Shown in pieces: positions 1,171-13,843 of a DNA stretch of 13,843 nucleotides (positions within the stretch are counted from its first letter, which is position 1; each line of letters begins with the position of its first letter). The notes under the pieces are model-generated. The model did not search any database. It saw only the letters and a program-made list of their open reading frames with translations, and was not told the origin of the DNA. Made by a program: the position numbers and the translations under genes. Origin of the DNA: an uncultured Altererythrobacter sp. GTDB lineage: Bacteria; Pseudomonadota; Alphaproteobacteria; Sphingomonadales; Sphingomonadaceae. The stretch is taken from contig CALFEA010000293.1 of NCBI GenBank assembly GCA_937950385.1, positions 1-13,843 on the forward strand, read 5' to 3'.

Positions 1171-1181
1171 CTGCGCGCCGC

Positions 1182-2108
1182 TTAGCATACACCATTTGTG
1201 TCTGGATCCTCGCAGCCTGCGGTTGGTGTGCCGTCAGGTTCAATAATCACTCCTGGCACATCGCTGCCGCCATCCTGCGATATGAGAACAGCCGCTGCTG
1301 CTGCGCCTAGGCCAGCGGCCACAGGCAGCAAATCGCCGAGCAACCCGCCACCATCATTGGCCCGTTTCACCTCAGGCGCGAGACGGTTTTGTGAGCGCAA
1401 TAGCCCGCGATCTGAAATGCGGAACGGGCCGATGGGCGCAGCGCCAATGCGGGGGATATAGGCCGCCAAACCCGGCTCATCCAACACGACGGTAACGCCC
1501 GCCGCCTCAACCTCGACCAACCCGCGTGTCAGCTCGCCCGCCGTGCCCGCGCCGGGGCCGCGCAGGATCACCATGGTGGCCTCGTCCTTCTTGTCTTTCA
1601 CGCCTTTGAGCGCGTCTTCATGTTCGGCGACTTTGACCGCTTTGGGCCCAGCGAACATATCAACCGCCGTGCCGCGAATGCCAATCCGGCCAGAGCTGGT
1701 TTTGACCTCGCCTGATTGGTTGCCGCCTTTGCGCCCCGAAAAGAAGCGCAAGGCCCCTTTCAGCAGGGTTGCGCCAAAGGAGCGATCTTTGTTTGGATCA
1801 TAGACGAATTTATCGATCCGCACGCGTGACTTTGTTCCGATCCCAAAGCTCGACCGGTCAAGTAGCAGCAATTGCGCCTGTGACTTTTTCGAAGTCGAAA
1901 TAATATCGCCCCAGGCCACACGCTGCTTGCGCGCAAGCTTGCGTTTCTTTGCCTTTGCGCTGGCCTGAATTTCAACCGTGCCCACGACCGATGCGGCATT
2001 GCCGACCTCGACCCGGCCTTGGGCGGCGGCGGGCAATGATAGGCTGGAGGTGATGAGGCTGGCGGATATGAGCAGCGCAGCGCAGCTGTTGACGCGGATG
2101 ATTTTCAT
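1182..2108 (-). CDS. Exported FecR-domain protein
   Basis: 308 residues. A signal peptide is clear (MKIIRVN, hydrophobic 8-28, probable cleavage after LPAAAQ near residue 30), so the protein should be periplasmic. Residues about 60-165 match the FecR fold: a basic entry (KKRKLARKQRVAWGD), SQAQLLLLDRSSFGIG, a RFFSGRKGG stretch and the hallmark TSSGRIGIRGTAVD at 138-150. The C-terminal part (250-308) is a Gly/Ala-rich hydrophobic segment followed by an acidic tail with two cysteines (C299 and C308). Unlike FecR itself it has no nearby ECF sigma or TonB receptor gene, so it is not a ferric-citrate regulator; FecR domains of this class accompany CHASE2 cyclases. Its start ATG overlaps the stop of the TPR-like gene by four bases, indicating translational coupling. 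Ligand unknown. Confidence 0.9.
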   Translation of the reverse strand: MKIIRVNSCAALLISASLITSSLSLPAAAQGRVEVGNAASVVGTVEIQASAKAKKRKLARKQRVAWGDIISTSKKSQAQLLLLDRSSFGIGTKSRVRIDKFVYDPNKDRSFGATLLKGALRFFSGRKGGNQSGEVKTSSGRIGIRGTAVDMFAGPKAVKVAEHEDALKGVKDKKDEATMVILRGPGAGTAGELTRGLVEVEAAGVTVVLDEPGLAAYIPRIGAAPIGPFRISDRGLLRSQNRLAPEVKRANDGGGLLGDLLPVAAGLGAAAAAVLISQDGGSDVPGVIIEPDGTPTAGCEDPDTNGVC

Positions 2109-2488
2109 TCCGGCATCTCCCCGCCGCAGCGCAGAAAAGCGGCGCGCAATGCCTCTTCGCCGACTTCCTTTTTCTTCAGCTGACGAAGCTCCACCAAGCC
2201 GCCTTGCTTGTCATCAATATCGCAGAGATAGACCGCATGCAGAGTGCGCGCGCCAATGGATTTGGGGAAGATTGCCAGCACGCGTTCCAGTGTTGCAATG
2301 GCTTCTAGATAATCGCCATTGGCCGCCTGATTGCTGGCCGTTTGAATGCCCGCTTGCTCATCAAGTGCGGCATCGGACAATGCGTCAATTTCATCGAAAT
2401 TCTGGGCTTGGCCGATGGCTGGAACAGTGATCATTGCCAGCATCGCCGCTGTGCCTGCGGCTAGAATTGGTCGTTGGAATTTTAGCAT
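2105..2488 (-). CDS. Small exported TPR-like protein
   Basis: 127 residues. Residues 1-28 form a signal peptide (MLKFQRP then a hydrophobic core, cleavage near AIGQA-Q). The mature part has one TPR-like helical hairpin at about 50-85 (NQAANGDYLEAIATLERVLAIFPKSIGARTL, with the usual G/Y/A/P spacing) and a second helical pair up to residue 120. A single TPR pair suggests an adaptor or partner rather than an enzyme. The start has a good Shine-Dalgarno, AGGGGG, about seven bases before the ATG. It is the first gene of a two-gene operon with the FecR protein, which it overlaps by ATGA, so the two probably work together in the periplasm. C90 and C121 could form a disulphide; this is inference. Confidence 0.85.
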   Translation of the reverse strand: MLKFQRPILAAGTAAMLAMITVPAIGQAQNFDEIDALSDAALDEQAGIQTASNQAANGDYLEAIATLERVLAIFPKSIGARTLHAVYLCDIDDKQGGLVELRQLKKKEVGEEALRAAFLRCGGEMPE

Positions 2489-2816
2489 ATCGGCCCCCTG
2501 TTTATGGCTATGTCATATGTTCGAGGGAGGCTGCAAGCTTGCACGCGGTTTTCCTCGGCTCATTTTCCTACATGGGTGAATATCGCTAAAGGGTCCTTTG
2601 GCGCTTAAAAAGTGGCGCTTGGCTCTTTCAATTCGCTTAGGTTTTATCGCACGTAAATGGACGTATCAGGGCTGCAAAAGTGACAAACACGGCCTCTCCC
2701 CCCAATTGTCACTTTCGCATAATTTTTGCGTTAGGCGTTGAATTTGCATGATAATATTGCAAGATGCGAAAGTGACACGGTGTAACCTTTGTCACCTTCG
2801 CGGCTCAAATGGGCGG
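2489..2816. other. 328-bp intergenic region between the GntP gene and the TPR/FecR operon
   Basis: No coding region is convincing here. Reading leftward it must hold the promoter of the TPR/FecR operon and the end of the permease transcript. A weak leftward promoter is possible: TTGAAA (2631-2626) followed about 16 bases later by TTTAAG near 2609-2604. A perfect 12-bp palindrome TGCAAGCTTGCA lies at 2532-2543, and TGGCGCTT is directly repeated at 2599 and 2613 (14-bp period). The upstream half contains the four-copy dyad array described separately. Confidence 0.5.
2674..2801. repeat. Four-copy GCGAAAGTGACA array in two inverted pairs (candidate operator)
   Basis: Four related 12-mers alternate in orientation: GCAAAAGTGACA (2674-2685, +), TGTCACTTTCGC (2707-2718, inverted), GCGAAAGTGACA (2766-2777, +) and TGTCACCTTCGC (2790-2801, inverted). 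Copies two and three extend to a perfect 14-bp inverted repeat (2707-2720 with 2764-2777). Copies three and four form a 12-bp hairpin with one mismatch and a 12-base loop. The array lies 185-315 bp upstream of the TPR/FecR start and just beyond the permease stop, so it could be a regulator-binding array or partly a terminator. No clear T-run follows, which favours a protein-binding role. Confidence 0.6.
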
Positions 2817-4175
2817 CTAGAATATCATCGCCAAAGCAACGCAAATCAGCGTGGCGATCACTGGCACAGCAACGGTGACCATGCCGACATCCTTATAGGC
2901 CTGTTTATGGGTCAAGCCGGTGATCGTCAGCATCGCAATCACCGCGCCGCAATGGGGCAGGCTATCGAACCCGCCAGCGGCCATAACGACCAGCCGGTGG
3001 AGCTCTTCTGGATCGATGCCCATGGCGATATATTTGTTCGCCATGGTCGCCATGAAAATCTGCAAGCCGCCCGATGATGATCCGGTAACGCCGGACACAA
3101 CGCTGATCGCGCCGGTCATCGAAAGCAGCGGGGGCAGGCCGGAATTGGCAGCGGCATCGGCGAAGGTTTGAAAACCGCTGGTTTTCGCCACCACTCCGCC
3201 AAAGCCGATCACGGTGGAAGTCGCCATTAACGGCATGATGGCGTCGCCTGCGCCCTCACTGATCGCAGCGAGCGGACGGCGGCGGATGGCAGGGAACAAA
3301 AGCGCCGCGATAACGCTGGCGATAACCAGTGCGATAGATGGCCACAGGATCGGCTGCGCATTGGCAAATGCGATGATGCTGGAGCTCTCGCCAATGCCCA
3401 AAACGCCCGCCATGCGCGGGGCGAGAATGGTGGCGATAACCAGCAGCAGCGGCACCATCGCCAGTGCGGCATTGGGGCGGTCTTTGGCAATCGCATCCAG
3501 ATCGGGAATGACATCGGTGGGCGCTGGGTCAAACCCCTCACCATTGGCAGCGGCTTTCTTCCGCTCGCGCTCAAGGTAAAGCATGCCAAGCGCGAACATA
3601 ATTGCCCCGCCAATCAGGCCCAGCCAAGCGCCTGCGAACAGATCCGTTCCCAGCACTGTGGTCGGGATCACATTGTGAATAGACGGCGTGCCGGGCAGGG
3701 CGGTGAGGGTGAATGTGCCTGCCCCCAAAGCCGCGGCTCCGCAGAGCAATCGTTTGGGAATATCCGCCTCTTTCAGCAGGCGAAGCCCGAGCGGATAGAT
3801 CGCAAAGATCACCACAAATACAACAACACCGCCATAGGTCAGCAAGCCGCAAGCAATGACGATAATCCAAAGCGCGCGCTGGGCTCCCAGCTTCTCCACA
3901 AGCGCCAAAGCGATGCTGGTTGCGGCATGGCTCTCGCCCATAACCCGTCCGAAAATCGCGCCTGCTGCAAACAAAAGGAAAAACCGGCCGGCAAAGGTAA
4001 ATGCGCCCAAATCGCCGAAAGTGAAATTGTCCGACAGGCTTTGCGCAAAGGGCATGCCATTGGAAAGGATCACCACGATCGAGCAAATCACAGCGGCAAA
4101 CACGACATTAATCCCGCGCAATGCCATCCAAATCAGCAGCGCCAAGCCTGCGAGCAGACCCAAAATTCCGACCAT
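2817..4175 (-). CDS. GntP-family permease (gluconate/organic acid:H+ symporter type)
   Basis: 452 residues, normal length for the GntP family, with about 11-12 hydrophobic membrane segments and no signal peptide. Family features visible are LPGTPSIHNVIPTTVLGT (160-177), the glycine/serine-rich GVTGSSSGGLQIFMA (362-376), GGFDSLPHCGAVI (401-413) and GLTHKQAY (420-427). GntP permeases import gluconate or related hydroxy-acids with protons; the sequence resembles the general branch rather than a proven gluconate carrier, and no sugar-acid kinase or dehydrogenase lies beside it, so the substrate is open. The ATG at 4175 is preceded by a purine-rich GGGGAAGTGAGAAT. It is transcribed alone and diverges from the ferritin-like gene. 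The 207-bp divergent region may contain promoters for both. Confidence 0.88.
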   Translation of the reverse strand: MVGILGLLAGLALLIWMALRGINVVFAAVICSIVVILSNGMPFAQSLSDNFTFGDLGAFTFAGRFFLLFAAGAIFGRVMGESHAATSIALALVEKLGAQRALWIIVIACGLLTYGGVVVFVVIFAIYPLGLRLLKEADIPKRLLCGAAALGAGTFTLTALPGTPSIHNVIPTTVLGTDLFAGAWLGLIGGAIMFALGMLYLERERKKAAANGEGFDPAPTDVIPDLDAIAKDRPNAALAMVPLLLVIATILAPRMAGVLGIGESSSIIAFANAQPILWPSIALVIASVIAALLFPAIRRRPLAAISEGAGDAIMPLMATSTVIGFGGVVAKTSGFQTFADAAANSGLPPLLSMTGAISVVSGVTGSSSGGLQIFMATMANKYIAMGIDPEELHRLVVMAAGGFDSLPHCGAVIAMLTITGLTHKQAYKDVGMVTVAVPVIATLICVALAMIF

Positions 4176-4287
4176 ATTCTCACTTCCCCATTACGCTCTC
4201 TCGCGCTTGCCCCTCTCATCGCCAACCTCATGGCGCAGCGCAACCCCGCATCGTGCAGCCCGCTCATCGCATTTCTCGCGCCGCGCA

Positions 4288-4315
4288 TTGACGCTAGAGG
4301 TGCAATCGCTAGGCT
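4288..4315 (+). promoter_or_regulatory. Candidate promoter for the ferritin-like/GtrA operon
   Basis: TTGACG (4288-4293) matches five of six -35 bases; TAGGCT (4310-4315) follows after 16 bases but matches only three of six -10 bases. Transcription from here would start near 4322, placing the 4339-4362 hairpin in the 5' UTR. Assigned by eye. Confidence 0.3.
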
Positions 4316-4338
4316 AACCGGGCGGGTCACACGAGCGA

Positions 4339-4362
4339 AAACAGCCCTATTGCGGGCTGTTT
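4339..4362. promoter_or_regulatory. Strong hairpin in the presumed 5' UTR of the ferritin-like gene
   Basis: AAACAGCCC (4339-4347) and GGGCTGTTT (4354-4362) form a nine-bp perfect stem with a six-base loop TATTGC. It looks like an intrinsic terminator core, but no gene precedes it on either strand that would need one: the permease reads away from it. It ends eight bases before the GGAG Shine-Dalgarno (4371-4374). A role as a 5' UTR regulatory or mRNA-stabilising stem, or as an attenuator, is possible. Confidence 0.5.
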
Positions 4363-4382
4363 GCCATTTTGGAGACTTTCCT

Positions 4383-5063
4383 ATGTTTGCATGGTTTCGC
4401 CGCCGCTATCTCGACGTTCTTGGTTCGATCTACATTTATAATGAGCACCGCGGCTATACCGCGATTGACCGCGTGTTGGAGGCGGTGCGGGCGCGCTGCC
4501 CGGATGATCACAAGCTGATTGCGTTGATTGAACAGCACCGCGTTGATGAGCGCGCGCATTATATGATGTTTCGCCGCTGGTTCGAATTGCAGGGCAAAAT
4601 GCCCCTTTGTGTCGACCGCACATTTGGGCATATTGACCGCTTTATTGAGATCATGTTCCGCACCAAAATCGATGATTTGGATACGCAGGCTTTGATTGAT
4701 GATGACGACCAGTTTGAAAAGCTATGCCGCGTCATTGCGCTCACCGAACAGCGCGGGTTCAAACAGGTTGAGATTTTGCTGGATCACGCGCTTGTTCAAA
4801 GCGATCCGGTCTTGATGAAGATCTTTCGCGTCATTCATAAGGACGAGCCCAGCCATTGGGCCCCTTATGAGGGGTGGCTGCGGGCCAATGGCAAGCGCGA
4901 GCCAAAATGGTGGGAACGGCGTGTCGACACATTTGTCCATTCTGAATTGTTGTTTTTGAAACTGCCGTTCCTCTTTCTCAACCCATTTATCGCACGCCGT
5001 CAGGATTGGGCGGACAGTGGCGAAGTAGCAGCGCCTGCATCTGGGGTCACTGCAAGCGCGTGA
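4383..5063 (+). CDS. Ferritin-like di-iron protein
   Basis: 226 residues from the ATG at 4383, chosen because GGAG at 4371-4374 sits eight bases upstream; the frame stays open much further left but that part is antisense to the permease gene. The chain is mostly helical and shows the four-helix-bundle metal signature twice: E21 (YNEHRGY) with E56-RA-H59, and E122 (LTEQRGF) with E155-PS-H158. This E / ExxH / E / ExxH pattern is that of ferritin-like/rubrerythrin-type carboxylate-bridged di-iron sites. It has no signal peptide. The C-terminal part (about 180-205) is hydrophobic and may contact the membrane. The exact reaction (iron oxidation, peroxide removal, or a lipid-modifying oxidase) cannot be told. 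Its TGA overlaps the GTG start of the GtrA gene. Confidence 0.8.
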   Translation: MFAWFRRRYLDVLGSIYIYNEHRGYTAIDRVLEAVRARCPDDHKLIALIEQHRVDERAHYMMFRRWFELQGKMPLCVDRTFGHIDRFIEIMFRTKIDDLDTQALIDDDDQFEKLCRVIALTEQRGFKQVEILLDHALVQSDPVLMKIFRVIHKDEPSHWAPYEGWLRANGKREPKWWERRVDTFVHSELLFLKLPFLFLNPFIARRQDWADSGEVAAPASGVTASA

Positions 5064-5485
5064 ACGCGGAAAAAGCGTCCTTTTTTGCGCGCTTCTGGAA
5101 CCGGCGCGCTGGCGCCATGCTGGTGCGCAATACGGTGGTAAGCACGGGGTCATTTCTATTGGGATTGGCCGCGCTTTGGGCGCTTGTGCAATATGGCGGC
5201 ATGGACAAGGTTTTGGCGACCGGCATCAGCTTTTTGATTGCCCAAACATTCCACTACAGCCTTGGCCGCAGCTGGATTTTCAAAGGGACGGACCGCGCGA
5301 TTGGTACTGGCTATGTGATATTTCTCGGCAATGCAGCCATGGGTTTGGTAATTACGGTCGTGCTGTTTGCTTTGCTGACCCATTACACACCGCTGCACTT
5401 CCTAGTGGCTCGCGTTGCTGTGTCGGTGATCGCGGGGCTGGCAATGTTTGTCGTCAATGCCGCGTTTAATTTCCGCCGTGTTTGA
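5060..5485 (+). CDS. GtrA-family small membrane protein
   Basis: 141 residues from a GTG start at 5060 that overlaps the preceding stop (GTGA), typical of coupled genes; ATG 5117 is a possible later start. Four membrane helices are visible (about 22-41, 48-66, 79-102, 108-130). GtrA-like features are the short basic N-terminus, SFLIAQTFHYSLGRSWIFKG between helices two and three, and the closing FVVNAAFNFRRV. GtrA proteins are thought to help move or retain polyprenyl-linked sugars in the inner membrane, usually with a GtrB glycosyltransferase; no glycosyltransferase is seen here, only the di-iron protein, so the role is uncertain. The gene stops 140 bp before the CHASE2-EAL gene. Confidence 0.82.
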   Translation: MNAEKASFFARFWNRRAGAMLVRNTVVSTGSFLLGLAALWALVQYGGMDKVLATGISFLIAQTFHYSLGRSWIFKGTDRAIGTGYVIFLGNAAMGLVITVVLFALLTHYTPLHFLVARVAVSVIAGLAMFVVNAAFNFRRV

Positions 5486-5565
5486 GTTTGAGTGGCGGGC
5501 GGCTCGCAGCTAGTGAATTGAAAAGTCAGAACAATACTCCGCAAGGGGCTCTTGGTAACCGCGCA

Positions 5566-5580
5566 TTAACCAAATCTTAT
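5566..5580 (+). promoter_or_regulatory. Near-consensus CtrA box upstream of the CHASE2-EAL gene
   Basis: TTAA (5566-5569), seven bases, then TTAT (5577-5580): one mismatch from the alphaproteobacterial CtrA consensus TTAA-N7-TTAA, with C following the first half as usual. It lies 45-59 bp before the start codon. A sigma70-like pair TTGGTA (5552-5557) and TCTTAT (5575-5580), 17 apart, overlaps it, so binding could either activate or block. Assigned by eye. Confidence 0.4.
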
Positions 5581-5624
5581 GGCATTTTCGGCATTGTGTA
5601 GGGGAGAAAACTCATAGGTTATCC

Positions 5625-7916
5625 ATGCAAGTCGCAAAGTTCAAATTTCCAGCTATTCCCAAGGTGACGCGTCACCTTGTGCTGGCGTTTGTGTTGGCGG
5701 GGTTTATCGCGCTTGGGCATCTCCTGCTGCCATTAGATACGATGTCTTGGATAATCCAAGCGAGAGCGGGAAGTAGCACTCCTAGCGATGAGATCATTCT
5801 GGTTAAGGTAGATCAAAGCACGATTGAGAATGATCGAGACGCAAAAGCCATATTAGCAGCCATCTCCAATATTGAGGATGCAGGTGCAGCCAAGGTATTC
5901 TTCGATATACCTAGCGACAAGCTGGGAACGATTGAAGAGGCTCTTGCTTCCGGCTTGGATCGGAGCGCAGGAGATAACTTGTTTCTTGTTGGTCGATATT
6001 CACTGCAGGATGGCGAAAAAACGCTAGATTTCCCACTCGATGTTCAGAGAATGAATGATCGAAACTTAGTTGTCTCTGATCCAATTGATCCGTCATTTTT
6101 TGGATACATTTGGGGTGTTTCAAGCGCGGTCATCTATAAAGACCGTACATATAATTCTTTTGCGATGGAGTTGGCGGGCGAGAAAGCTCACAAAACGCCG
6201 GTTATTCCGATTGGCTACAAATTTGAGGTCACTGACTTCCAGACAGTTAGTGCTTTAGACGCTGCGCAAGGCAATTTTAAATCATCGATTTTTGCCGGTA
6301 AACATGTCGTTGTCGGCTATGTAGGCTCGCAAGAAAGTGAATTGGTCAAACTCCCTAGATGGGGATATGAAGCCAAAAGTTTTAGCGCGATCTATGCAGC
6401 GGAAAGCCTAAAGAGCGGCGGAGTAACCTATGTCACGCGGGTAGAAGTATTCCTCGCTTTCTTTTTCATGCTTGTTGGCGTGGTTATCCTTCTTCGAAAG
6501 GCCCGTTGGGTTGGCTATGCCGGAATAGTGGGCGTTTTCATTGGCGGCTTGATCGTGCCAATTTTCATGCCTCTTTATCTTGAGCTTTCCGCAGCAGGTG
6601 TTTTGCTCTTGTCCTTCGCTGGCTTTAGAGGATTCAATCGCTGGCGCAGTTCGATCGAAATGCGATCGGGCGAGAGCGGATTGCCTACCTTGAAGGCGCT
6701 GGCGCGCAAGCTTCAGAATACCAAAACACTTGAAAATCAGTCTTTGGTGACAGCCAAATTGCACGGTCTCTCTGATGCTATGGCCATGCTGGATGATGAC
6801 GGAAGGTTGAAGTATTTTGAGGCAATTGCAGCACGGCTAAAAATCGCAAATAAGAACCTCGACCTATTTGCCAATAGCGGCGAGCATATCGTCTGGTATG
6901 AGCGCTTTGAGCAGCGTGACATATTGCAATCGCATTTGGTTGCGCTGAAAGCCATTTTTGCCAATCCGCTGGAGATTAATGGAAAATTCTTCGATGTGCC
7001 TGTGACTTTTGCAGCCGATCTGAGCTTTGGTGAAGCGGCGGCTAAGCGGATCAGCAATGTGATTGCACTCGCAGATAAGACGTCTTTGGCAGAGACGCCT
7101 ATCCTGATCGGCGACGAGGCCACTGCAAAAGACCGCGAATGGACTGTGTCCTTGCAATCCAGCATTGATGCGGCTTTGAAAAAGGGCGAGATTTTTCCCG
7201 TTTTCCAGCCAAAGATATGTTTGGATGATGGCTCAATCTGCGGATATGAGGCGTTGGTTCGCTGGAACGATAAGGAACGCGGCTTTATCAGCCCAGCCTA
7301 TTTCATCGAACAATGCGAGCAAGCGGGCCGCATGGGCAAGTTAACGCAATTTATGCTGGATCAATCAATCCGGCAGTATCAAGCTTCTGCCGCCTATCAA
7401 TATGGCGGCACATTGGCGGTGAATATCTCCTCCACCATGTTCTCTGATACCAGCCTGCCGCAAATGGTCGCCGACATTTTGGACGCAACGGGCTTTCCAG
7501 AAGAGCGCCTAGTCATCGAAGTTACCGAAACCGCCAGAATTCACGATCCCAAAACGGCGAAATCGGTTTTGAATGCACTGGCATCCATTGGTGTGGGCTT
7601 GTCATTGGATGACTTTGGGACGGGAACGGCGGGTCTTGAAACGCTGTATACTTACCCGTTTAGCGAAATTAAGATCGACCGCGCCTTTATTGCCGGGCTC
7701 AATTCTGATCCCAAAGCGCGCCTTATCTGCAACCAAGTCATTGCACTGGGCAATTCGTTGAATATGAATGTGGTGGCCGAAGGGATTGAAGACCTGGCCA
7801 CAATGATGGCGCTGAAGCAAATGGGCTGTCCTATGATGCAAGGATTTTATCTTGGACGCCCTGAAGTAGAGCCGGCCATCGAGCCTTTGGTGCGACTGGA
7901 TTTAACAGGAAATTAA
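5625..7916 (+). CDS. CHASE2 - degenerate GGDEF - EAL cyclic-di-GMP phosphodiesterase
   Basis: 763 residues. An N-terminal membrane helix (about 18-38) leads to a periplasmic CHASE2 sensor (about 40-268), then three membrane segments (272-335). Residues about 350-495 look like a decayed GGDEF domain: SGLPT is the remnant of LTGLPNR and the GGDEF loop reads NSGEHIVWYE, so cyclase activity is not expected. The EAL domain (about 510-755) keeps the catalytic set: E542 (YEALVRW), N600, E632/E635 (EVTE), D662-D663 (DDFGTG), K683 (KIDR), E719 (AEGIE) and Q739 (QGFYLG). Hydrolysis of c-di-GMP to pGpG on the cytoplasmic side, controlled by an unknown periplasmic signal, is expected. The ATG at 5625 has only a weak Shine-Dalgarno (AGG, six bases upstream); V14 (GTG 5664) is an alternative. 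CtrA-like boxes lie before and at the end of the gene. Confidence 0.93.
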   Translation: MQVAKFKFPAIPKVTRHLVLAFVLAGFIALGHLLLPLDTMSWIIQARAGSSTPSDEIILVKVDQSTIENDRDAKAILAAISNIEDAGAAKVFFDIPSDKLGTIEEALASGLDRSAGDNLFLVGRYSLQDGEKTLDFPLDVQRMNDRNLVVSDPIDPSFFGYIWGVSSAVIYKDRTYNSFAMELAGEKAHKTPVIPIGYKFEVTDFQTVSALDAAQGNFKSSIFAGKHVVVGYVGSQESELVKLPRWGYEAKSFSAIYAAESLKSGGVTYVTRVEVFLAFFFMLVGVVILLRKARWVGYAGIVGVFIGGLIVPIFMPLYLELSAAGVLLLSFAGFRGFNRWRSSIEMRSGESGLPTLKALARKLQNTKTLENQSLVTAKLHGLSDAMAMLDDDGRLKYFEAIAARLKIANKNLDLFANSGEHIVWYERFEQRDILQSHLVALKAIFANPLEINGKFFDVPVTFAADLSFGEAAAKRISNVIALADKTSLAETPILIGDEATAKDREWTVSLQSSIDAALKKGEIFPVFQPKICLDDGSICGYEALVRWNDKERGFISPAYFIEQCEQAGRMGKLTQFMLDQSIRQYQASAAYQYGGTLAVNISSTMFSDTSLPQMVADILDATGFPEERLVIEVTETARIHDPKTAKSVLNALASIGVGLSLDDFGTGTAGLETLYTYPFSEIKIDRAFIAGLNSDPKARLICNQVIALGNSLNMNVVAEGIEDLATMMALKQMGCPMMQGFYLGRPEVEPAIEPLVRLDLTGN
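5661..5678. repeat. 18-bp perfect palindrome inside the CHASE2-EAL coding start
   Basis: AAGGTGACGCGTCACCTT is its own reverse complement and covers codons 13-18 (K V T R H L). Its half-site AAGGTGAC also occurs in the reverse complement of the fourth repeat of the 2674-2801 array (GCGAAGGTGACA). It could be an intragenic operator or an RNA hairpin near the start codon, or chance. Confidence 0.6.
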
Positions 7917-7917
7917 C
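7902..7917 (+). promoter_or_regulatory. Perfect CtrA box overlapping the end of the CHASE2-EAL gene
   Basis: TTAA (7902-7905), CAGGAAA, TTAAC (7913-7917) is an exact match to TTAA-N7-TTAAC. It overlaps the TAA stop codon (7914-7916) and ends eight bases before the -35 box of the small transcription unit. A further TTAAC half-site lies at 7937-7941 inside the promoter spacer. The position fits control of the small ORF downstream. CtrA is the conserved cell-cycle and motility response regulator of alphaproteobacteria. Confidence 0.6.
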
Positions 7918-7925
7918 CTTAGGTC

Positions 7926-7953
7926 TTTACATCCCATTAACTAAGTGCATTAT
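7926..7953 (+). promoter_or_regulatory. Promoter of the small ORF/sRNA unit
   Basis: TTTACA (7926-7931, five of six matches to TTGACA), a 16-base spacer, and CATTAT (7948-7953, four of six matches to TATAAT). The start site would be near 7960, giving a transcript of about 100 bases that ends at the terminator at 8058. The CtrA box sits directly upstream. Confidence 0.5.
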
Positions 7954-7980
7954 GGAGCGGTCGAAAAAAGGAGATCGCAC

Positions 7981-8010
7981 ATGTTGGGTTCTTGGTTAGA
8001 TTGGTTCTAG
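7981..8010 (+). CDS. Nine-codon small ORF (MLGSWLDWF) in a stand-alone transcription unit
   Basis: ATG at 7981 follows a strong Shine-Dalgarno, AAGGAGAT (AGGAG about eight bases upstream), and encodes MLGSWLDWF with a TAG stop. Two of nine residues are tryptophan and the peptide is hydrophobic with one acidic residue. The stop codon lies in the loop of a small hairpin: ATTGGT (8000-8005) pairs with ACCAAT (8011-8016). A second TTGGT at 7992-7996 could compete for the same ACCAA. Promoter, CtrA box and terminator frame it closely. A Trp-rich short ORF plus alternative stems and a terminator recalls an attenuator leader, but no gene follows on this strand for over 2 kb, so a free micropeptide or a dual-function sRNA is more likely. 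I do not recognise the family. Confidence 0.5.
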   Translation: MLGSWLDWF

Positions 8011-8035
8011 ACCAATTCATAAAAACAACGACTTA

Positions 8036-8058
8036 GGGGGCCTTGGGGCCCCCTTTTT
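8036..8058 (+). terminator. Intrinsic terminator of the small ORF unit
   Basis: GGGGGCC (8036-8042), loop TTGG, GGCCCCC (8047-8053), followed directly by five Ts (8054-8058). A seven-bp all-GC stem with a T tract is a textbook rho-independent terminator, oriented rightward. Confidence 0.85.
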
Positions 8059-8298
8059 CATGCCTGAAGCCCTGAGTTCAGCCCGGATTTATGGTTAAGT
8101 GATTCGCACCATTTCGGATCAAAACGCCAATATCTCGCGTGTTTCATCGCTGCTTTGTTAACGCAATTCGTAGTCAATACGGCCAGCATCAGGCCCAAAT
8201 ACAGCAAACCCGCACCCCTTTTTAAAGGGATACGGGATTACTGTACCAAACAATCAAAAGGTGGTTTGCTCGAAGCCTCTTGAAGCGAGGCCGGAAGC
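8059..8298. other. Non-coding stretch between the small ORF terminator and the leftward operon
   Basis: With the preceding small unit this makes a 382-bp gap without a conventional gene. I see no coding region in it. It holds the hairpin at 8209-8236 and a second small stem, GCCTC (8275-8279) with GAGGC (8287-8291), close behind the stop of the leftward operon. The rest (8059-8200) shows nothing recognisable. Confidence 0.5.
8209..8236 (-). terminator. Possible terminator of the leftward four-gene operon
   Basis: CCCG (8209-8212) pairs with CGGG (8233-8236) and CCCTTT (8216-8221) with AAAGGG (8224-8229), separated by a three-by-three internal loop, with a two-base tip. It lies about 60 bases beyond the last stop codon of the operon. 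Only a short TTT follows in the leftward direction, so termination is likely weak. Confidence 0.4.
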
Positions 8299-8691
8299 TT
8301 ACTCAACCAAGGCTTTAATCCGCTGAGCCTCTGATTGCTCCTCTTCTTCTTCTGCGACCGAAAAGCTGCTGGGCTGATTTTTTATGCCCCAACGCGTTTG
8401 AAAATCGTCAATGCGGTGCATCTGTTCCTCGCGTTCACGCTTATTGTGCCGCCATCCAAAGACGCCAACCACGCAGCCCAATGCAAACAAAGATGCAAGC
8501 GATGTCGTATTCACAATATTGGTCCCGCTAAGGCCAAAGATTAGCAAGCACCACAAGACGATCAATCCGCCAATGCCCATCAATGGCCAGCCGAACATGC
8601 TGCGAGAATAGGCATATTGGCGCTCGCGCGTATATTGATCACGCTCGCCCCAGCCTTGCTGGCGGCCTGCTTCAAAATCCATATCCGACAT
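8299..8691 (-). CDS. Unrecognised two-helix membrane protein
   Basis: 130 residues, not recognised. The N-terminal 33 residues are polar and aromatic-rich (QQGWGERDQYTRERQYAYSR). Two membrane helices follow (about 34-54 and 63-80), then a charged C-terminal tail with a five-glutamate run at 114-118. Both termini should face the cytoplasm because the regions flanking the helices are rich in Arg/Lys (RHNKRERE after helix two). The start ATG has a good GAGAGG Shine-Dalgarno seven bases upstream. It is the last gene of the leftward cluster and starts three bases after the preceding stop, so co-expression is likely. No enzymatic motif is visible. Confidence 0.78.
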   Translation of the reverse strand: MSDMDFEAGRQQGWGERDQYTRERQYAYSRSMFGWPLMGIGGLIVLWCLLIFGLSGTNIVNTTSLASLFALGCVVGVFGWRHNKREREEQMHRIDDFQTRWGIKNQPSSFSVAEEEEEQSEAQRIKALVE

Positions 8692-8694
8692 AAT

Positions 8695-9219
8695 TTATCC
8701 TCTCGACGGGCCAAGCCCGAAGCTTTGTGACCAATCCATCCAGTCTTGATCGTAACCGTTTTGCTTTAATCGTTGAAAATGCCCGATGAAGCCGATGATG
8801 ACGGAGATTGTTAAGATCTGTGTGGGGGCGGTTCGCAATATTGAGTAGGCCATCTCGTCGATATCCAACTGCACTGCTCTGGAAAAGTGACTGAAAACCG
8901 CCAGCAATTGGCCTCCCGCTGCGACAAGTGGCCAAATACGATTGGCGTTCAAGGCTATGGCCACGAAACCAATGGCGAGCACCAAATCAGCCAATAGCGC
9001 GATAGTGTCTACGCTGGAAAAGATCGGCGAGATTTTCGCATAAAAGGCGGACTGAATGAGTAATGAGAGAACAATCACGCTCGTCCCAAACAATTCTGGC
9101 TGACCCGATTTCTCCCCCTTGGCGGTTCTCAGAACCTTCCAACCTGCAAGCAGAATACATACTGCAAGCGGCGCCAGGCCCAAAGTAACGCGCCAATCAG
9201 AGAAATCGGGCGCAGACAA
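8695..9219 (-). CDS. Unrecognised five-helix membrane protein
   Basis: 174 residues from a TTG start at 9219 that directly abuts the TAA of the preceding gene (TAATTG); no ATG suits the N-terminus. About five membrane helices are seen (11-30, 44-64, 71-90, 96-112, 130-148). The polar C-terminal tail (149-174) contains GYDQDWMDWSQSFGLGPSRG. I do not recognise a family or catalytic motif. Neighbours on both sides are close enough for one transcript, and the first gene of the cluster is a membrane-tethered regulator, so a membrane-located accessory or sensor function is conceivable, as inference only. Confidence 0.75.
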   Translation of the reverse strand: MSAPDFSDWRVTLGLAPLAVCILLAGWKVLRTAKGEKSGQPELFGTSVIVLSLLIQSAFYAKISPIFSSVDTIALLADLVLAIGFVAIALNANRIWPLVAAGGQLLAVFSHFSRAVQLDIDEMAYSILRTAPTQILTISVIIGFIGHFQRLKQNGYDQDWMDWSQSFGLGPSRG

Positions 9220-9543
9220 TTACTTGTTCACCAGTTTGAGAGGTGTCACTTCTTTTACAGAAGCATCTGGGCATTCCCAAGGGTAAGAATTTTTGACTTC
9301 AAATGCGTCTGCGACGCTTGCGTGTGCTGCGACGACTTTCATGCGCGCTTCGATCAAATGTTTTTGTGCATCAGCCATACGGGCGAGCGCTTTTTGTCCA
9401 GTGGCAGCGTCCATATTTGCTTCGATGCGGTAATCCGCCATTAGCGCCATCAATTGAGCGGCTTGGACAATTTCCATGTCAACGCCGTCTTCCAAATTAT
9501 GCATTGCTGCGCTGATAGCTTTTGCTTGTTGATCCTGTTGCAT
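9220..9543 (-). CDS. Unrecognised small helical cytoplasmic protein
   Basis: 107 residues from the ATG at 9543, preferred over the ATG at 9561 because AGGGG lies seven bases before it. There is no signal peptide or membrane helix. The chain is almost all helical, with Ala/Met-rich stretches (about 5-75, QAAQLMALMADYRIEANMDAATG then KALARMADAQKHLIEARMKV style pattern) suggesting a coiled coil, then a short non-helical tail with one cysteine (SYPWECPD). It is the second gene of the cluster, 51 bp after the LuxR-type gene and abutting the five-helix membrane gene. Function unknown. Confidence 0.75.
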   Translation of the reverse strand: MQQDQQAKAISAAMHNLEDGVDMEIVQAAQLMALMADYRIEANMDAATGQKALARMADAQKHLIEARMKVVAAHASVADAFEVKNSYPWECPDASVKEVTPLKLVNK

Positions 9544-9594
9544 TTTTAAACCCCTAATCATCTATAGTTGATCGAGAAGGCTCTCGCAGTTTGA

Positions 9595-10068
9595 TCAGAT
9601 CAGAACGCTCAATGATGTCGCAATGGACATCATCAAAAGACCGATCATGGCAATCGATATTGCGATTGCAATGACTAGTCCTATCCGACCCCAACGCCCA
9701 AACTGTGCGTCGATTGCCTCCAGGAAAGAGGATCGCGGGACTATGCCTGCACCCTTTGTTTCCTGAGGAGGTGATTGATCCACATCGGATGTAATATCGA
9801 GGTGGGGAAAGGCATATATGGGTTGTCCGCATATCGATCTAAGCTCAACAAAACGCCGGATACTCGAATTGCGATCAGTGGTTTCAAGCTTGTCGCGCAC
9901 ATAGGCAATGCGCTGCTCAACTGTGCTGGGCGATATGTCCAATTCCCGCGCAATCAGCTTGTTGCTTTTATGCTGAGCGGCCAATTCCATCACTGCCGTT
10001 TGCCGCTTAGTGAGGCGGTCCAGTGCCTCGGCCGCGCTGGCTATTTCAAGATCAGATGGTGTGCCCAT
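9595..10068 (-). CDS. LuxR-type HTH regulator with a C-terminal membrane helix
   Basis: 157 residues from ATG 10068; a TTG start at 10110 with AGGG ten bases upstream is an alternative (171 residues). Residues about 18-76 form a LuxR/GerE helix-turn-helix: LTKRQTAVMELAAQHKSNKLIARELDISPSTVEQRIAYVRDKL style, with the usual Ser-Thr-Val-Glu at the recognition helix. There is no receiver or ligand-binding domain in front. A polar linker (77-125) leads to one membrane helix (about 129-154) at the very end. It would thus be a tail-anchored DNA-binding protein, DNA-binding head in the cytoplasm. It heads a leftward cluster of three unrecognised genes and diverges from the receiver-domain gene, so it may control either or both. 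Release by proteolysis or direct signalling through the membrane is speculation. Confidence 0.85.
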   Translation of the reverse strand: MGTPSDLEIASAAEALDRLTKRQTAVMELAAQHKSNKLIARELDISPSTVEQRIAYVRDKLETTDRNSSIRRFVELRSICGQPIYAFPHLDITSDVDQSPPQETKGAGIVPRSSFLEAIDAQFGRWGRIGLVIAIAISIAMIGLLMMSIATSLSVLI

Positions 10069-10206
10069 GTAATTTTGTCTTAAATCAAACCCTGTCTTGT
10101 CTACCAGCAAAATAAATTAACCCTTTGATCCTTTGAGTTTTCGTGCCGAGTAATCGCTGCGTCTTTGAGCCAGAATTAGCCTATTTGCGGCGCTCTAAGC
10201 ACTATT

Positions 10207-10220
10207 TTAACGCGCGTTAA
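10207..10220. promoter_or_regulatory. 14-bp palindrome TTAACGCGCGTTAA in the divergent promoter region
   Basis: Two TTAAC-type half-sites face each other with six bases between the TTAA cores, one short of the CtrA spacing. A lone TTAACC lies at 10117-10122. The site is between the divergent LuxR-type and receiver genes (10069-10350), where regulatory sites for both are expected. It could bind the HTH protein itself. No clear -10/-35 pair is seen in this region. Confidence 0.4.
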
Positions 10221-10350
10221 TTTTGCGAAGGCGGCTTATGGGCTTGGATGTTGTGTTTTGCCGGTCTCTCCAGATCGGATGTTTCACTGCTTTACTAAAA
10301 GGGGTTCGCATCCTTTCATCACGATCGAGCCGAGTGATGGAGAAATTGCG

Positions 10351-11610
10351 ATGTTTGCGAGCGAAACAGCCTTGAGTGGCGCAAGAGGCAGCCATGCAGA
10401 AGTGCAATTGGAAAAGCTCCAAGGGCGATCGCGAGCCGCAAAACTGGTATCTTCCGGCACACAAGCTGAGGAAGGCAGGCTGATCGGCCACTATATTGAG
10501 GATGATGCCCTTGATGCGCTGGCCCTTACTGGGATGTTGAATGGGGAAGGCGATATCAGCCTGACGACCAGTACATCATTGCACGATTTTGAAGATTGGA
10601 TCGAAGGCGGTGATCTCGATTTTGTCTTGGTTGATATTTATCGCCCCGATTCTCGGTCATTTGAGGATGAAGTGAAACGTATCCGGGCATTTTCCAATGC
10701 TGCAATATTCTTCATCACGGGCGATGAAGCGAAATTCTACGTCGATGATGCATTGGAAGTGGGGGCCGAAGGGGTTTTGGAAAAGGAGGCTTTGACGGCT
10801 CAGGGGCTGCTCAAGGTCTTGCGAAAGGCGGTAAAGGCGCGGCAAGAGGACCTAAATCGCGGCTGTTTCATGGCCAATGGTGCACCTTCAATGGGAGCAG
10901 GGCGCGGCACAGATATTGCGGGCGGCGATAAAGGCACGTGCTCGCAAGATCAGGCCGAGGATCACTCTGATTGGCTTGTTTTGCCGGCAGAGCAACAGAC
11001 AAATAGCGTTGATCCGCAGCGGTTCGAAACGGCGCAGAATTACCTCAATGACGCGCTCAAGGGGATTGCTGCAAATGGTGATAGCGCCCTGCCATTGGGC
11101 GAGATATTGGGCGCGGTCGCGGACGCACAGATTTTGCTTAAGGCCTTCGCTCAAAACCGGCCAAATGGCGCTCAGCCAGCATCTAAATCAGCGCCCCGAG
11201 CCATCCGCGACTTGCAGCGCACTGCGCTATCGGCGGCAAAGCAGCGCGGCATCAAACTGGCTTTCCATGCTGAGGCATCTGTATTTGACGATGCCGCATT
11301 GAGCGAGATCAGCTTGTGTATTCGCAGCCTGCTAAAAGCGGTCATCATTGGCAGTCCAAAGGGTGCGACAATCCAATTCAATGGGTTGGGCAATGCAGAC
11401 GGGATCCGGCTTAGTATCACCTCTACAGCGGTATTTCCGTTCGATATTGGTGACGTTATTGATAAAAGGATAATTGGAAGAATAAATAACTTATCATCAA
11501 CAATACTAATGACAGCCGCGTGTATGTTGCTACAGATCGATTCGTCCAAAATTACAGTATTTAAGAGAAAATTCTTAAATACTGTACTTATTGATATTCA
11601 GGATGATTGA
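10351..11610 (+). CDS. Receiver-domain protein with an unusual kinase-like C-terminus
   Basis: 419 residues from ATG 10351, chosen because GGAG (10339-10342) sits eight bases upstream; earlier starts (TTG 10258, ATG 10279) lack one. Residues about 41-165 are a response-regulator receiver with all key residues: acidic D51-D52 (IEDDALD), phospho-acceptor D95 (VLVDIY), T123 (FITGD) and K145 (LEKEAL). After a low-complexity linker (170-215) comes a helical part (about 222-300) and then an alpha/beta part (300-360) that resembles a histidine-kinase ATPase fold (LLKAVIIGSPKGATIQF, DGIRLSITST) but lacks the N-box Asn and the DxGxG motif. No HTH or output enzyme is visible. The last 50 codons are AT-rich and use AGA, AGG, ATA and TTA, unlike the rest. 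Three bases separate it from the CheB-CheR gene, so the receiver may act in trans on that hybrid, which has none of its own at the N-terminus. Confidence 0.82.
   Translation: MFASETALSGARGSHAEVQLEKLQGRSRAAKLVSSGTQAEEGRLIGHYIEDDALDALALTGMLNGEGDISLTTSTSLHDFEDWIEGGDLDFVLVDIYRPDSRSFEDEVKRIRAFSNAAIFFITGDEAKFYVDDALEVGAEGVLEKEALTAQGLLKVLRKAVKARQEDLNRGCFMANGAPSMGAGRGTDIAGGDKGTCSQDQAEDHSDWLVLPAEQQTNSVDPQRFETAQNYLNDALKGIAANGDSALPLGEILGAVADAQILLKAFAQNRPNGAQPASKSAPRAIRDLQRTALSAAKQRGIKLAFHAEASVFDDAALSEISLCIRSLLKAVIIGSPKGATIQFNGLGNADGIRLSITSTAVFPFDIGDVIDKRIIGRINNLSSTILMTAACMLLQIDSSKITVFKRKFLNTVLIDIQDD
11553..11586. repeat. 14-bp perfect inverted repeat at the AT-rich end of the receiver gene
   Basis: TACAGTATTTAAGA (11553-11566) and TCTTAAATACTGTA (11573-11586) are exact reverse complements with a six-base spacer GAAAAT. 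It lies inside codons near the receiver gene's 3' end and 27 bases before the CheB-CheR ATG. The surrounding 150 bp (11461-11610) count 45 G/C, that is 30%. It could be an operator for an internal promoter, an RNA stem affecting relative expression of the two genes, or a scar of insertion. Confidence 0.7.
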
Positions 11611-11613
11611 TCG

Positions 11614-13843
11614 ATGGCAAAAAAACTCCGCACTGCACATGTGCCCAAGACTAGTCAGTCTAAGGTCAAGCCGGAGTTAAACAAAAGCGAGTACCCCAAA
11701 TTCGTTATCGGCCTTGGTGCCTCTGCTGGCGGGCTAGAGGCTTTGGAGCAATTTTTCGATCATGCGCGCGATGATGCTGGGGCCGCCTATATTGTTGTGA
11801 TGCACCTCTCGCGCGACTTTAAGAGCATGCTCGATGATCTGCTCGCACGCCGCACAAGTATGAAAGTGCTCGCCGCCGAAAATGGGCAGGCATTGGAAGG
11901 GGATACAATTTATGTGATCCAGCCCAACACTTCTCTCGAAGTGGAAGGCACCAAGCTCAAAGTCGAAGAGCGTGAGACTATCGGTTCAGAAGGCGTTGTG
12001 ACAGCGGTTGATACGCTGTTTCGGTCAATCGCGGAAAGCTGGGGAGAGCGCGGCGCGGCGATTGTGCTGTCGGGTTCTGGTTCAGATGGCGCGCGCGGCA
12101 TTCGCAGTGTCCGGCAGGCAGGTGGTTTCACCTGCGCGCAGTCACCTGAAACAGCCAAGTTTGACCCCATGCCAATTGCCGCGATTGCAACCGAAGAGGT
12201 CAATGCCGTCGAGCCGCCAGAACAATTGGCGCGCACCGTTATAGAGGGCCTGATGATGCCCATGTCCTCACGTCTTTCTTCTGCGAAGAGTGATGATGAC
12301 AAGGCAATGGCGCAAATCGTCGACGCGGTGATCGGGGCGACGACGTTGAAAGCGGAGGAATATAAGCATTCCACGTTTGCACGGCGTGTGAGCCGCCGGA
12401 TGATGAACCGCCGAATTGATGATCTGGGCGAGTATTCGCGGATCGTTGCGCAGGATAAGTCTGAGGCTAAAGCGCTTAGCGATGACTTGCTGATCGGGGT
12501 GACTGAGTTTTTCCGTGACACGGGGCCTTTCAAGACGATCAAGCAGGTTATCGTGCCGCAGATCATCCAAAAGGCGCATGAAGAAAAACGCGGTATCCGA
12601 ATTTGGATCGCTGGATGTGCCACTGGCGAGGAGGCCTATACGATCGCGATATTGTTTCGTGAGGCTTTGCGCGACATGCCATTTGAAATCGATGTGCAAT
12701 TGTTCGCATCTGATATTTCCCGCAAGCATTTGGATATCGCCAGCCGCGGCAGTTACACCAGCGATCAAGTCGCCAATATTCCGCGCACTTTGCTAGAGCG
12801 CTATTTCGAATTTGACGATGAGCTCAATAGCTGGACTGTGACAAAGCGCGTGCGCAAGATGATCGTCTTTGCTCCCCATGATTTGCTGTCTGATCCGCCC
12901 TTTACCAAGCTTGATCTGGTGACCTGCCGCAATGTGCTGATTTACTTCTCGGTCGAAGCGCAGCAGCGCATTCTGGGTGGTTTCGCCTTTGGTTTGGTTC
13001 CCGGGGCGTTTCTATTCCTTGGGTCGAGTGAGACAATCGGCGGGCAAGGGGATGTTTTCGAATTTGTAGATGGACGCCAGCGCATCTTCCGCCGCACACC
13101 GGACCGCGTCAGCCTGCGCTCGATGAGCAAAGCTCGGTCGCTTTTCCCAGGCAAAACCGCAGCGACATTGGCACCTGCCCGCAAATCCGCGACCGTGCGC
13201 AGCACCGAGCTGCAACCTGCTTATACAGCTTTGCTCAGCGAATATGCGCCGGCCAGCCTGCTGTTTTCTAGCGACCGCGAATTGCTGCATAGTTTTGGCG
13301 ATGCCCACCGCTTTTTGAGGCCGCCTGCCGGTGTCGCCAATTTGGACATCACAGAGATGGTGGATGCCTCGCTCAAAACGCCAATGATTGTGGCGCTAGA
13401 ACGCGCTTCACGCGATCTGAAGTCGCTGACTTTTAGCAAAATCGCGCTCACATCGCATCCATCAGAAGGCTTGCTCGTCGATTTGACTGTGCGTCCGCTG
13501 AAGGCGGAAAGCGATGGCGCCGCGACAAATTTTCTGGCGATCATTGACGATCATAAGGCTAATGCAGCCGCCCCTGCAGAATTTGCGTCTGTGCAAGCGA
13601 TCAATGCCGATGAACTGATGAGCAGCCGGCAAACTGAGCTTGAGCAGGAATTGAACCGAACGCGCGAGGCTCTGCAATCCACCATTGAGGAGATTGAGAC
13701 CGCCAATGAGGAATTGCAGGCATCTAACGAGGAATTGATGTCGGCCAATGAGGAGCTGCAATCCACCAATGAGGAATTGAGTTCGGTCAATGAAGAGCTT
13801 TACACGGTCAATGCCGAATACCACCGTCAAAATGACGAGCTGA
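11614..13843 (+). CDS. CheB-CheR hybrid with C-terminal coiled coil (3' end outside window)
   Basis: ATG at 11614 with AGGAT about nine bases upstream; 743 codons are visible and the frame runs off the end. Residues about 28-215 are a CheB methylesterase domain with the catalytic triad S37 (GLGASAGG), H64 (VMHLS) and D158 (SGSGSDG). Residues about 230-495 are a CheR methyltransferase domain: TEFFRD (297-302), SAM-binding AGCATGEEAYTIA (333-345), FASDIS (364-369) and CRNVLIYF (438-445). A PAS-like segment (about 520-645) follows, then a coiled coil of NEELxxx heptads from residue 698. Such hybrids usually continue into PAS and histidine-kinase domains; that part is not seen. No receiver precedes CheB, as is usual for these hybrids. 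No che operon or methyl-accepting protein is nearby, so control of something other than flagellar chemotaxis is likely. Overlapping leftward frames are shadows. Confidence 0.92.
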   Translation, partial: MAKKLRTAHVPKTSQSKVKPELNKSEYPKFVIGLGASAGGLEALEQFFDHARDDAGAAYIVVMHLSRDFKSMLDDLLARRTSMKVLAAENGQALEGDTIYVIQPNTSLEVEGTKLKVEERETIGSEGVVTAVDTLFRSIAESWGERGAAIVLSGSGSDGARGIRSVRQAGGFTCAQSPETAKFDPMPIAAIATEEVNAVEPPEQLARTVIEGLMMPMSSRLSSAKSDDDKAMAQIVDAVIGATTLKAEEYKHSTFARRVSRRMMNRRIDDLGEYSRIVAQDKSEAKALSDDLLIGVTEFFRDTGPFKTIKQVIVPQIIQKAHEEKRGIRIWIAGCATGEEAYTIAILFREALRDMPFEIDVQLFASDISRKHLDIASRGSYTSDQVANIPRTLLERYFEFDDELNSWTVTKRVRKMIVFAPHDLLSDPPFTKLDLVTCRNVLIYFSVEAQQRILGGFAFGLVPGAFLFLGSSETIGGQGDVFEFVDGRQRIFRRTPDRVSLRSMSKARSLFPGKTAATLAPARKSATVRSTELQPAYTALLSEYAPASLLFSSDRELLHSFGDAHRFLRPPAGVANLDITEMVDASLKTPMIVALERASRDLKSLTFSKIALTSHPSEGLLVDLTVRPLKAESDGAATNFLAIIDDHKANAAAPAEFASVQAINADELMSSRQTELEQELNRTREALQSTIEEIETANEELQASNEELMSANEELQSTNEELSSVNEELYTVNAEYHRQNDEL
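13705..13842 (+). repeat. 21-bp coding repeat encoding NEELxxx heptads
   Basis: Five exact-frame heptads start at 13705, 13726, 13747, 13768 and 13789 (NEELQAS, NEELMSA, NEELQST, NEELSSV, NEELYTV), followed by the looser NAEYHRQ and NDEL. The DNA repeats every 21 bp but with varied codons, so selection on the coiled coil rather than recent duplication explains it. Such linkers join CheR to downstream sensor-kinase parts. Confidence 0.85.

Follow-up and report, generated by a model that had tools for sequence, protein, structure and literature searches.

Among the main regulators of development in alphaproteobacteria are CtrA and cyclic di-GMP (c-di-GMP). Type I toxins and leader peptides offer known examples of very short open reading frames (ORFs) under the translational control of RNA structure, and CydX and KdpF are small subunits of membrane complexes. 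Here we describe a short unit in a 13,843-nucleotide (nt) stretch of DNA from an uncultured Altererythrobacter sp. (contig CALFEA010000293.1, positions 1 to 13,843; hereafter the window), in which an ORF encoding the nine-residue peptide MLGSWLDWF lies directly behind a gene for a CHASE2-EAL protein. Comparison with relatives shows, at the level of sequence, that the ORF is under coding selection and travels with the EAL gene, equipped with its own promoter-like block, a hairpin at the Shine-Dalgarno (SD) sequence and a terminator. We lean towards the explanation that the unit encodes a translated W-x-W micropeptide that functions together with the CHASE2-EAL phosphodiesterase of the preceding gene and is expressed from a CtrA-type promoter.

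Like CydX and KdpF, the peptide is encoded by a tiny conserved ORF adjoining a membrane-protein gene; unlike them, many members of its family have only 9-15 amino acids (aa), by inspection too short for a membrane-spanning helix, and a separate promoter-like block is present. With type I toxins and leader peptides it shares a very short ORF and RNA structure at the translation start. In contrast to type I toxins, the members are short and have no long hydrophobic stretches, and those of 9-12 aa cannot span the membrane; in contrast to leader peptides, no same-strand gene follows closely in the window.

In phage T4, the SD sequences of genes e, soc, 49 and I-TevI are predicted to be masked by hairpins in long read-through RNA, and the 5′ strand of the gene e hairpin is encoded by DNA that contains the late promoter, so that the transcript from this promoter escapes masking (PMC3014915). 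The present unit resembles gene e in having a predicted SD helix in the long RNA whose pairing has been kept in evolution, and a promoter-like block overlaps the 5′ arm, which a short RNA from the predicted start would largely lack; it differs in its bacterial chromosomal location, in a CtrA-type rather than a T4 late promoter, in a product of 9-36 aa and in a predicted masking that is weaker in the window. The CtrA full site is TTAA-N7-TTAAC and the half-site is TTAACCAT (reverse complement ATGGTTAA), according to PMC3692519. The same motif sequences occur near the -35 element here as in CtrA-controlled promoters (PMC3692519, PMC11527210). Compared with the promoters in these two papers, the predicted half-sites lie ahead of the -35 and within the spacer, and the composite arrangement, where it was found among 10 genomes, stood at the peptide locus.

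The unit and its constant neighbour, all on the + strand, are laid out in the window as follows.

5625-7916, +: gene for a CHASE2 - (GGDEF-like) - EAL phosphodiesterase (predicted from Pfam and fold matches), constant neighbour of the peptide unit
7902-7917, +: TTAA-N7-TTAAC, sequence of the CtrA full site, overlapping the EAL stop codon (7914-7916)
7926-7931, +: -35 element TTTACA (promoter scan)
7936-7941, +: ATTAAC in the 16-nt spacer, at the position of the relatives' conserved ATGGTTAA half-site (read from the sequence and a 62-locus logo)
7948-7953, +: -10 element CATTAT, after the 16-nt spacer that follows the -35 (promoter scan and logo)
7957-7978, +: SD hairpin with arms GCGGTC (7957-7962) and GATCGC (7973-7978), its loop holding most of the SD (folding)
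7970-7973, +: SD sequence GGAG
7981-8010, +: micropeptide ORF MLGSWLDWF, from the ATG at 7981 to the TAG ending at 8010
7999-8017, +: hairpin around the stop codon, 7999-8006 with 8010-8017 (predicted fold, weak support from the group)
8035-8058, +: intrinsic terminator, stem 8035-8054 (8 bp, 7 of them G-C) followed by T (terminator scan)

Conservation of the micropeptide ORF

The promoter, SD sequence, nine-codon ORF and terminator that the original prediction had claimed are each present in the window, and its claim that no + strand gene follows for over 2 kb was borne out as well, the next gene-like + strand frame being a receiver-domain gene that starts at 10258 at the earliest. Taken alone, promoter matches were at chance level in the region (2 found, 2.1 expected), as were terminator matches (3 found, 2.4 expected), and the RNA of the unit folds only slightly better than shuffled sequences (z -1.65). 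Evidence therefore has to come from relatives, and conservation in relatives is what raises the unit above chance.

A direct DNA search with 176 bp was convincing only for the nearest relative found, an Altererythrobacter metagenome-assembled genome (JALZVZ; E 1e-7 and 1e-4), all other matches being short and at E 0.006 or worse. For this reason relatives were sought through synteny with the EAL gene. A profile built from 14 EAL orthologs (A1) was run on 297 genomes of the order with a cut-off of E ≤ 1e-130; it matched 114 of them, once per genome, and all 114 belong to the window's own family. From a class-wide draw of 241 genomes, four matched at E ≤ 1e-90, again all within this family. The scores in the order were bimodal with a gap, 50 matches reaching 686 bits or more (close orthologs) and 64 falling at 442-548 bits (intermediate orthologs). 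We read the 3′ side of all 50 close orthologs and of 20 of the 64 intermediate ones by a fixed rule, which demanded an ATG, an SD string, an ORF of 6-60 aa in which one of the four residues after a W is W, Y or F, all between a point just before the EAL stop and 420 nt 3′ of it, and a terminator within 130 nt of the ORF. Under this rule the unit was found behind 50/50 close orthologs, 14/20 intermediate orthologs and 0/14 distant EAL paralogs used as controls (12 from one set of searches and 2 from another; L052 and L054 were unusable in this comparison). When the terminator test was omitted, the peptide was found behind all 50 close and 18 of the 20 intermediate orthologs. Two further intermediate members (L188 and L189) also carry it. 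Among the paralog control loci, L049 and L053 have a W-x-W in TTG-started, out-of-frame ORFs that fail the ATG rule. The ATG lies 57-67 nt from the EAL stop in close orthologs and 51-187 nt from it in intermediate ones.

For the analyses that follow, a set of 81 loci was assembled from the 50 close orthologs, 19 intermediate ones (L157 included) and 12 loci from the genus and from Croceibacterium; the loci are related to one another, and counts over them are not independent. The encoded peptides have 9-36 aa (median 14), that of the window being the shortest, and all 81 start with ATG. At least one W is present in every peptide and at least two in 79, with W-x-W in 76, although 80 of the peptides are distinct. 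The 77 cores that could be aligned give the consensus [F/I]-W-[D/x]-W-[L/I/M]-[F/L]; the four peptides left out of the codon table comprise three without a clear core and one that is too short. Relatives with the same layout include MFEDGDGFGWWKWW, MFDFWNWLFR, MWNFWRWMFG, MRRSIWDWIFS and MSKRKIMQAPRGSNPRRPQQHRGFWRWFLGDW. Identical cores are written in different codons, FWDWLF in eight codon sets and IWDWIF in five, and where codons at the four variable positions differ by a single base, 46% of the differences are synonymous, compared with 20% expected. The synonymous excess and the varied codon sets point to coding selection on the ORF, although the related pairs of loci behind this figure are not independent. 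An SD string precedes the ORF in 76/81 loci (8.3 in shuffles), and a terminator lies within 130 nt of the stop in 76/81 (4.0 in shuffles).

These results argue that the peptide is very probably translated and conserved. Because the family is found, with a promoter and terminator of its own, immediately after one particular EAL gene, the nine-residue ORF is probably a real regulatory peptide gene and not a chance ORF. The micropeptide proposed in the original prediction is thus backed by coding-type conservation of a stand-alone unit over 81 loci, and the absence of codon conservation in close relatives, which was to have spoken against it, was not what we found. Family-model searches were carried out with longer relatives, the window peptide being below their 20-residue limit: Pfam gave no match for five of them, and NCBIfam gave none for one of two and a chance-level match (E 0.22) for the other. 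A literature search over titles and abstract openings, with subscription journals largely outside its coverage, showed nothing on the peptide among the matches listed. The W-x-W family has apparently not been described before.

Linkage of the peptide to a CHASE2-EAL gene

Peptide and EAL gene were also found together when the search began from the peptide. A pattern comprising an SD, an ATG and W-D-W-x-F occurred at 23 places in 21 of 397 order genomes, compared with one place for the reversed pattern. Twenty-two of the 23 lie behind the EAL gene; the last begins at the contig end, and its sequence repeats another match. With a looser pattern, 49 places were found in a genus sample of 114 genomes that includes the window's own; among the 30 fetched, all seven with a short ORF plus terminator lie behind the EAL gene. 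Neither search (30 of 49 genus places; 23 order places) yielded an EAL-free copy, and the link is maintained over 22 genera. In one genome (G667, locus L181), a promoter-like block, hairpin, ORF and terminator stand in tandem copy behind a single EAL gene, with ORFs at locus positions 1512 and 1707. Since the copy carries all of these parts, it marks out the boundaries of the unit.

The partner matched EAL (7.1e-64) and CHASE2 (5.3e-8) in Pfam, with a middle region that has no Pfam match. Residues E542, N600, E632, D662, D663, K683 and E719 are invariant across the 14 EAL orthologs, and we take these seven to be the EAL catalytic set. The protein is therefore consistent with a phosphodiesterase of predicted activity. 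An AlphaFold model based on 14 sequences (mean pLDDT 78.6, pTM 0.49) contains a helix at the N terminus, a mixed domain (CHASE2), several long helices in series, a GGDEF-like part and an EAL part; the domain order in this model is reliable, the relative placement of the domains is not. The long helices, judged by eye from the model, would be membrane helices. The best fold matches in the PDB were the GGDEF-EAL proteins DosP, MorA and PA0575.

From this linkage, a functional partnership of the peptide with the EAL protein appears quite probable, and direct action of the peptide on that protein is a possibility to which we give slightly less than even weight. A peptide functionally unrelated to its neighbour, for instance a membrane-active or stress peptide whose position has merely been retained, could equally have its own promoter-like block and terminator and be duplicated as a unit in G667, and contact between the peptide and the EAL protein is inferred from synteny only. 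A link kept over 22 genera and two pattern searches without an EAL-free copy (7/7; 22/23, with the last at a contig start) make this explanation unlikely. The same linkage might be read as a non-coding element at the 3′ end of the EAL mRNA, made of stability hairpins and a terminator, with the ORF as a by-product: the unit stands directly behind the EAL gene in all 70 order loci except one that lacks it, and its terminator would end the EAL mRNA too. That reading is very improbable in view of the coding-type conservation, with ATG in 81/81 and the SD string in 76/81 loci, of a promoter-like block conserved between the EAL stop and the ORF, and of the tandem copy having its own block.

If the unit were a leader peptide or attenuator for a gene further on, a short ORF with a terminator soon behind it would be expected as well, and four genus members (L034, L035, L036 and L037) have, by eye, a similar same-strand ORF soon after the terminator (starts MQIKIDTHFAFELE, MDLSITTHFAFELS and alike). 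In the window, however, the next + strand gene begins only at 10258 or later, and in the 900 nt that follow the unit at each of the 81 loci, the longest open frame, which is not a gene call, lies on the same strand in 44 and on the opposite strand in 35, the sequence being too short in two. We give this explanation next to no weight, in line with the original prediction, which had considered a leader peptide unlikely. Its description of the unit as standing alone was right as to the promoter-like block and the terminator; the tie of the peptide to the upstream CHASE2-EAL gene was absent from it.

CtrA-type elements in the promoter

The logo of the 62 loci with a recognisable -35 reads ATGGTTWA, then C-TTTACA-AACA-NNN-ATGGTTAA-YG, then nA[TA]nnT at N17, where the -10 part, nA(T/A)nnT, has its A in 90% and its last T in 51%. 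Within 90 nt upstream, TTTACA occurs in 55/81 loci (5.5 in shuffles) and a full CtrA site in 7/81 (0.46 in shuffles). The exact half-site was found in 38/81 (0.44 in shuffles), making 44/81 with an exact half-site or full site, and the shorter GTTAA/TTAAC in 79/81 (23.4 in shuffles). A -35 combined with a TTAA element in the spacer is present in 54/81 loci, and in 49/81 two half-site-like elements flank or surround the -35. In 46/50 close orthologs, the first TTAA-type element shares bases with the EAL stop codon. Of 10 genomes, six gave a single copy of the composite block, which in every case was the one at the peptide locus, and four gave none, so it is limited to this locus and is not a genome-wide box; no regulon sharing the composite promoter was found among these 10 genomes. 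Taken together, the recurrence of these elements makes control of the unit by CtrA rather likely.

The perfect TTAA-N7-TTAAC named in the original prediction is present at 7902-7917, and nowhere else in the 13.8 kb of the window is there a TTAA-N7-TTAA (0.10 expected from shuffling, with one or more in 18 of 200 shuffles). What recurs in relatives are TTAA half-sites before and after the -35, rather than this box, so the claim of CtrA-type sites in the promoter stood, with a recurrent feature other than the 7902 box. As a family feature, TTAA-N7-TTAAC at the EAL stop was rejected, with 2/81 loci having it at that place.

Two further matches lie outside the promoter. An exact copy of the half-site sequence, ATGGTTAA, is present at 8091-8098 (0.27 expected in the window), adjoining GATTC, and upstream of the EAL gene, at 5560-5600, TTAACCAA is one mismatch from a CtrA half-site. 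The EAL gene itself may belong to the same regulon.

Hairpins at the Shine-Dalgarno sequence and the stop codon

The SD hairpin was assessed by shuffling the 26 upstream bases while the SD and spacer were held fixed. Over the 81 loci the mean z was -2.60, with 56 loci below -2; the window locus gave -8.4 kcal/mol and z -2.3. Counted per genus, the mean z was -2.00, negative in 20/22 genera and below -1 in 14, compared with +0.17 for 23 ordinary genes as controls. Swapping upstream arms between loci weakened folding from -11.44 to -9.20 kcal/mol (sd 0.20; lowest of 300 permutations -9.91), and the own arm ranked among the best tenth in 24/81 loci (8.1 expected). The arms thus fit their own partners best, which amounts to covariation: hairpin sequences vary between loci, and pairing is kept.

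In 62 loci, after leaving out the 19/81 without a recognised -35 or SD pairing, the 5′ arm begins about 20 nt after the -35 and ends about 30 nt after it (medians), where it covers the -10 and reaches the predicted start at 29-30. Because of this overlap, an mRNA reading through from the EAL gene would hide the SD, and the transcript of the unit itself would expose it. Over 63 loci (18/81 left out), the median energy for opening the SD was 8.5 kcal/mol in the read-through RNA and 3.2 in the predicted short RNA, a drop of more than 2 kcal/mol in 53/63. Promoter-dependent masking of the SD, as these folding models suggest it, stands at even odds in our judgement.

Around the stop codon, the mean z was -1.11 over 76 loci, 19 of them below -2, and the window locus had -1.2, so that this stem is suggestive only. 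The two competing stems of the original prediction were in part recovered: both TTGGT copies (7992 and 8001) and the ACCAA at 8011 match exactly, and the 8001/8011 stem is in the predicted fold; the 7992/8011 stem is not. Conservation of the stems likewise found some, if weak, support for the one enclosing the stop, the best-supported structure being instead the SD hairpin.

Such structures might suggest a dual-function or purely regulatory small RNA (sRNA), in which a terminated transcript base-pairs through its anti-SD or GGAG arms, with the peptide in a minor role. A compact terminated unit with conserved hairpins, a hairpin tendency in the stop region and a short transcript that overlaps an mRNA 3′ end would all fit. 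The pattern of conservation, however, is that of a coding sequence; across loci no constant seed was seen, because the hairpin sequences differ while pairing is kept; and Rfam gave no family at gathering score in the window or in eight relative loci. We regard an sRNA as distinctly unlikely.

Proposed mechanism and significance

The preferred reading, a translated micropeptide working with the CHASE2-EAL protein, can be extended to a mechanism. CtrA would bind the TTAA/TTAACCAT elements and switch on the short transcript. In read-through mRNA from the EAL gene the hairpin would conceal the SD; the short transcript would begin within or just after the 5′ arm, leaving the SD free, and the peptide would be produced mainly upon firing of the unit's own promoter. 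More speculatively, the short aromatic peptide might sit at the inner membrane surface and tune how active the EAL protein is or where it is placed, which would couple CtrA timing to local c-di-GMP.

Several observations weigh against this reading, in addition to the kinship among loci. At the level of the family, the intermediate group is less uniform: the scan detected no terminator at four loci (L150, L153, L155 and L161), the related ORF at L157 was spotted by eye and is not preceded by a standard SD, L151 (in G185) has no peptide and, by eye, a transposase-like ORF just behind the EAL stop, and L045 (in G076), which at 442.5 bits is at the lower edge of the group and was used as a control, has no peptide. 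As to CtrA, neither exact site is present in 37/81 loci; the exact half-site occurs in only 10/22 genera and is absent from the window's promoter; the full box at the EAL stop is shared by the window with its nearest relative (L061) alone; and a -35 with nAnnnT at N15-18 occurs in only 38/81 loci, a raw count without shuffle comparison. As to masking, at least three of the five SD bases are paired in 73/81 loci, yet 56 were expected from shuffles. The drop in opening energy is partly built in, because any shortening of an RNA frees sequence and the start is predicted. In the window, the loop of the GCGGTC/GATCGC stem takes up most of the SD, and this member may therefore be masked less strongly. 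Direct contact between the peptide and the EAL protein, finally, would follow from synteny alone.

In its boldest form, the proposal is that ultra-short peptides (down to nine residues) throughout this lineage bind and control a dedicated CHASE2-EAL protein, their translation silent in read-through RNA and on only when CtrA fires the internal promoter, which would make the unit the equivalent, on a bacterial chromosome, of the switch at T4 gene e and would tie c-di-GMP to the timing of the cell cycle. We consider this version doubtful and put it forward tentatively. A conserved, unannotated peptide gene that adjoins both a CtrA-type promoter and a phosphodiesterase gene nevertheless offers a testable link between CtrA and c-di-GMP in sphingomonads. 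ORFs of 9-15 codons, which are under the usual annotation cut-offs, are recognisable through synteny, and promoter-dependent SD masking, known in phage T4, may operate in bacterial chromosomes.

Neighbouring genes and elements

The intergenic segment 8060-8120 behind the terminator has convergent genes on its two sides, includes the half-site copy at 8091-8098 and is well conserved in the nearest relative (L061). A strong terminator-like hairpin of 12 pairs at 8209-8236 on the - strand would serve the convergent gene at 8299-8691 and is distinct from the terminator of the unit. Further on, 9595-10110 on the - strand encodes a LuxR-type DNA-binding protein with no receiver domain match and, by eye, a hydrophobic C-terminal stretch. 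At the other end of the window, positions 1-1170 on the + strand hold a gene with an adenylate/guanylate cyclase catalytic domain, truncated by the window start, which is a second cyclic-nucleotide enzyme nearby. The window's own genome also contains a second CHASE2-EAL-like gene (G000:C91:7744-9774, L167), which scores 329 bits to the A1 profile and runs to the end of its locus.

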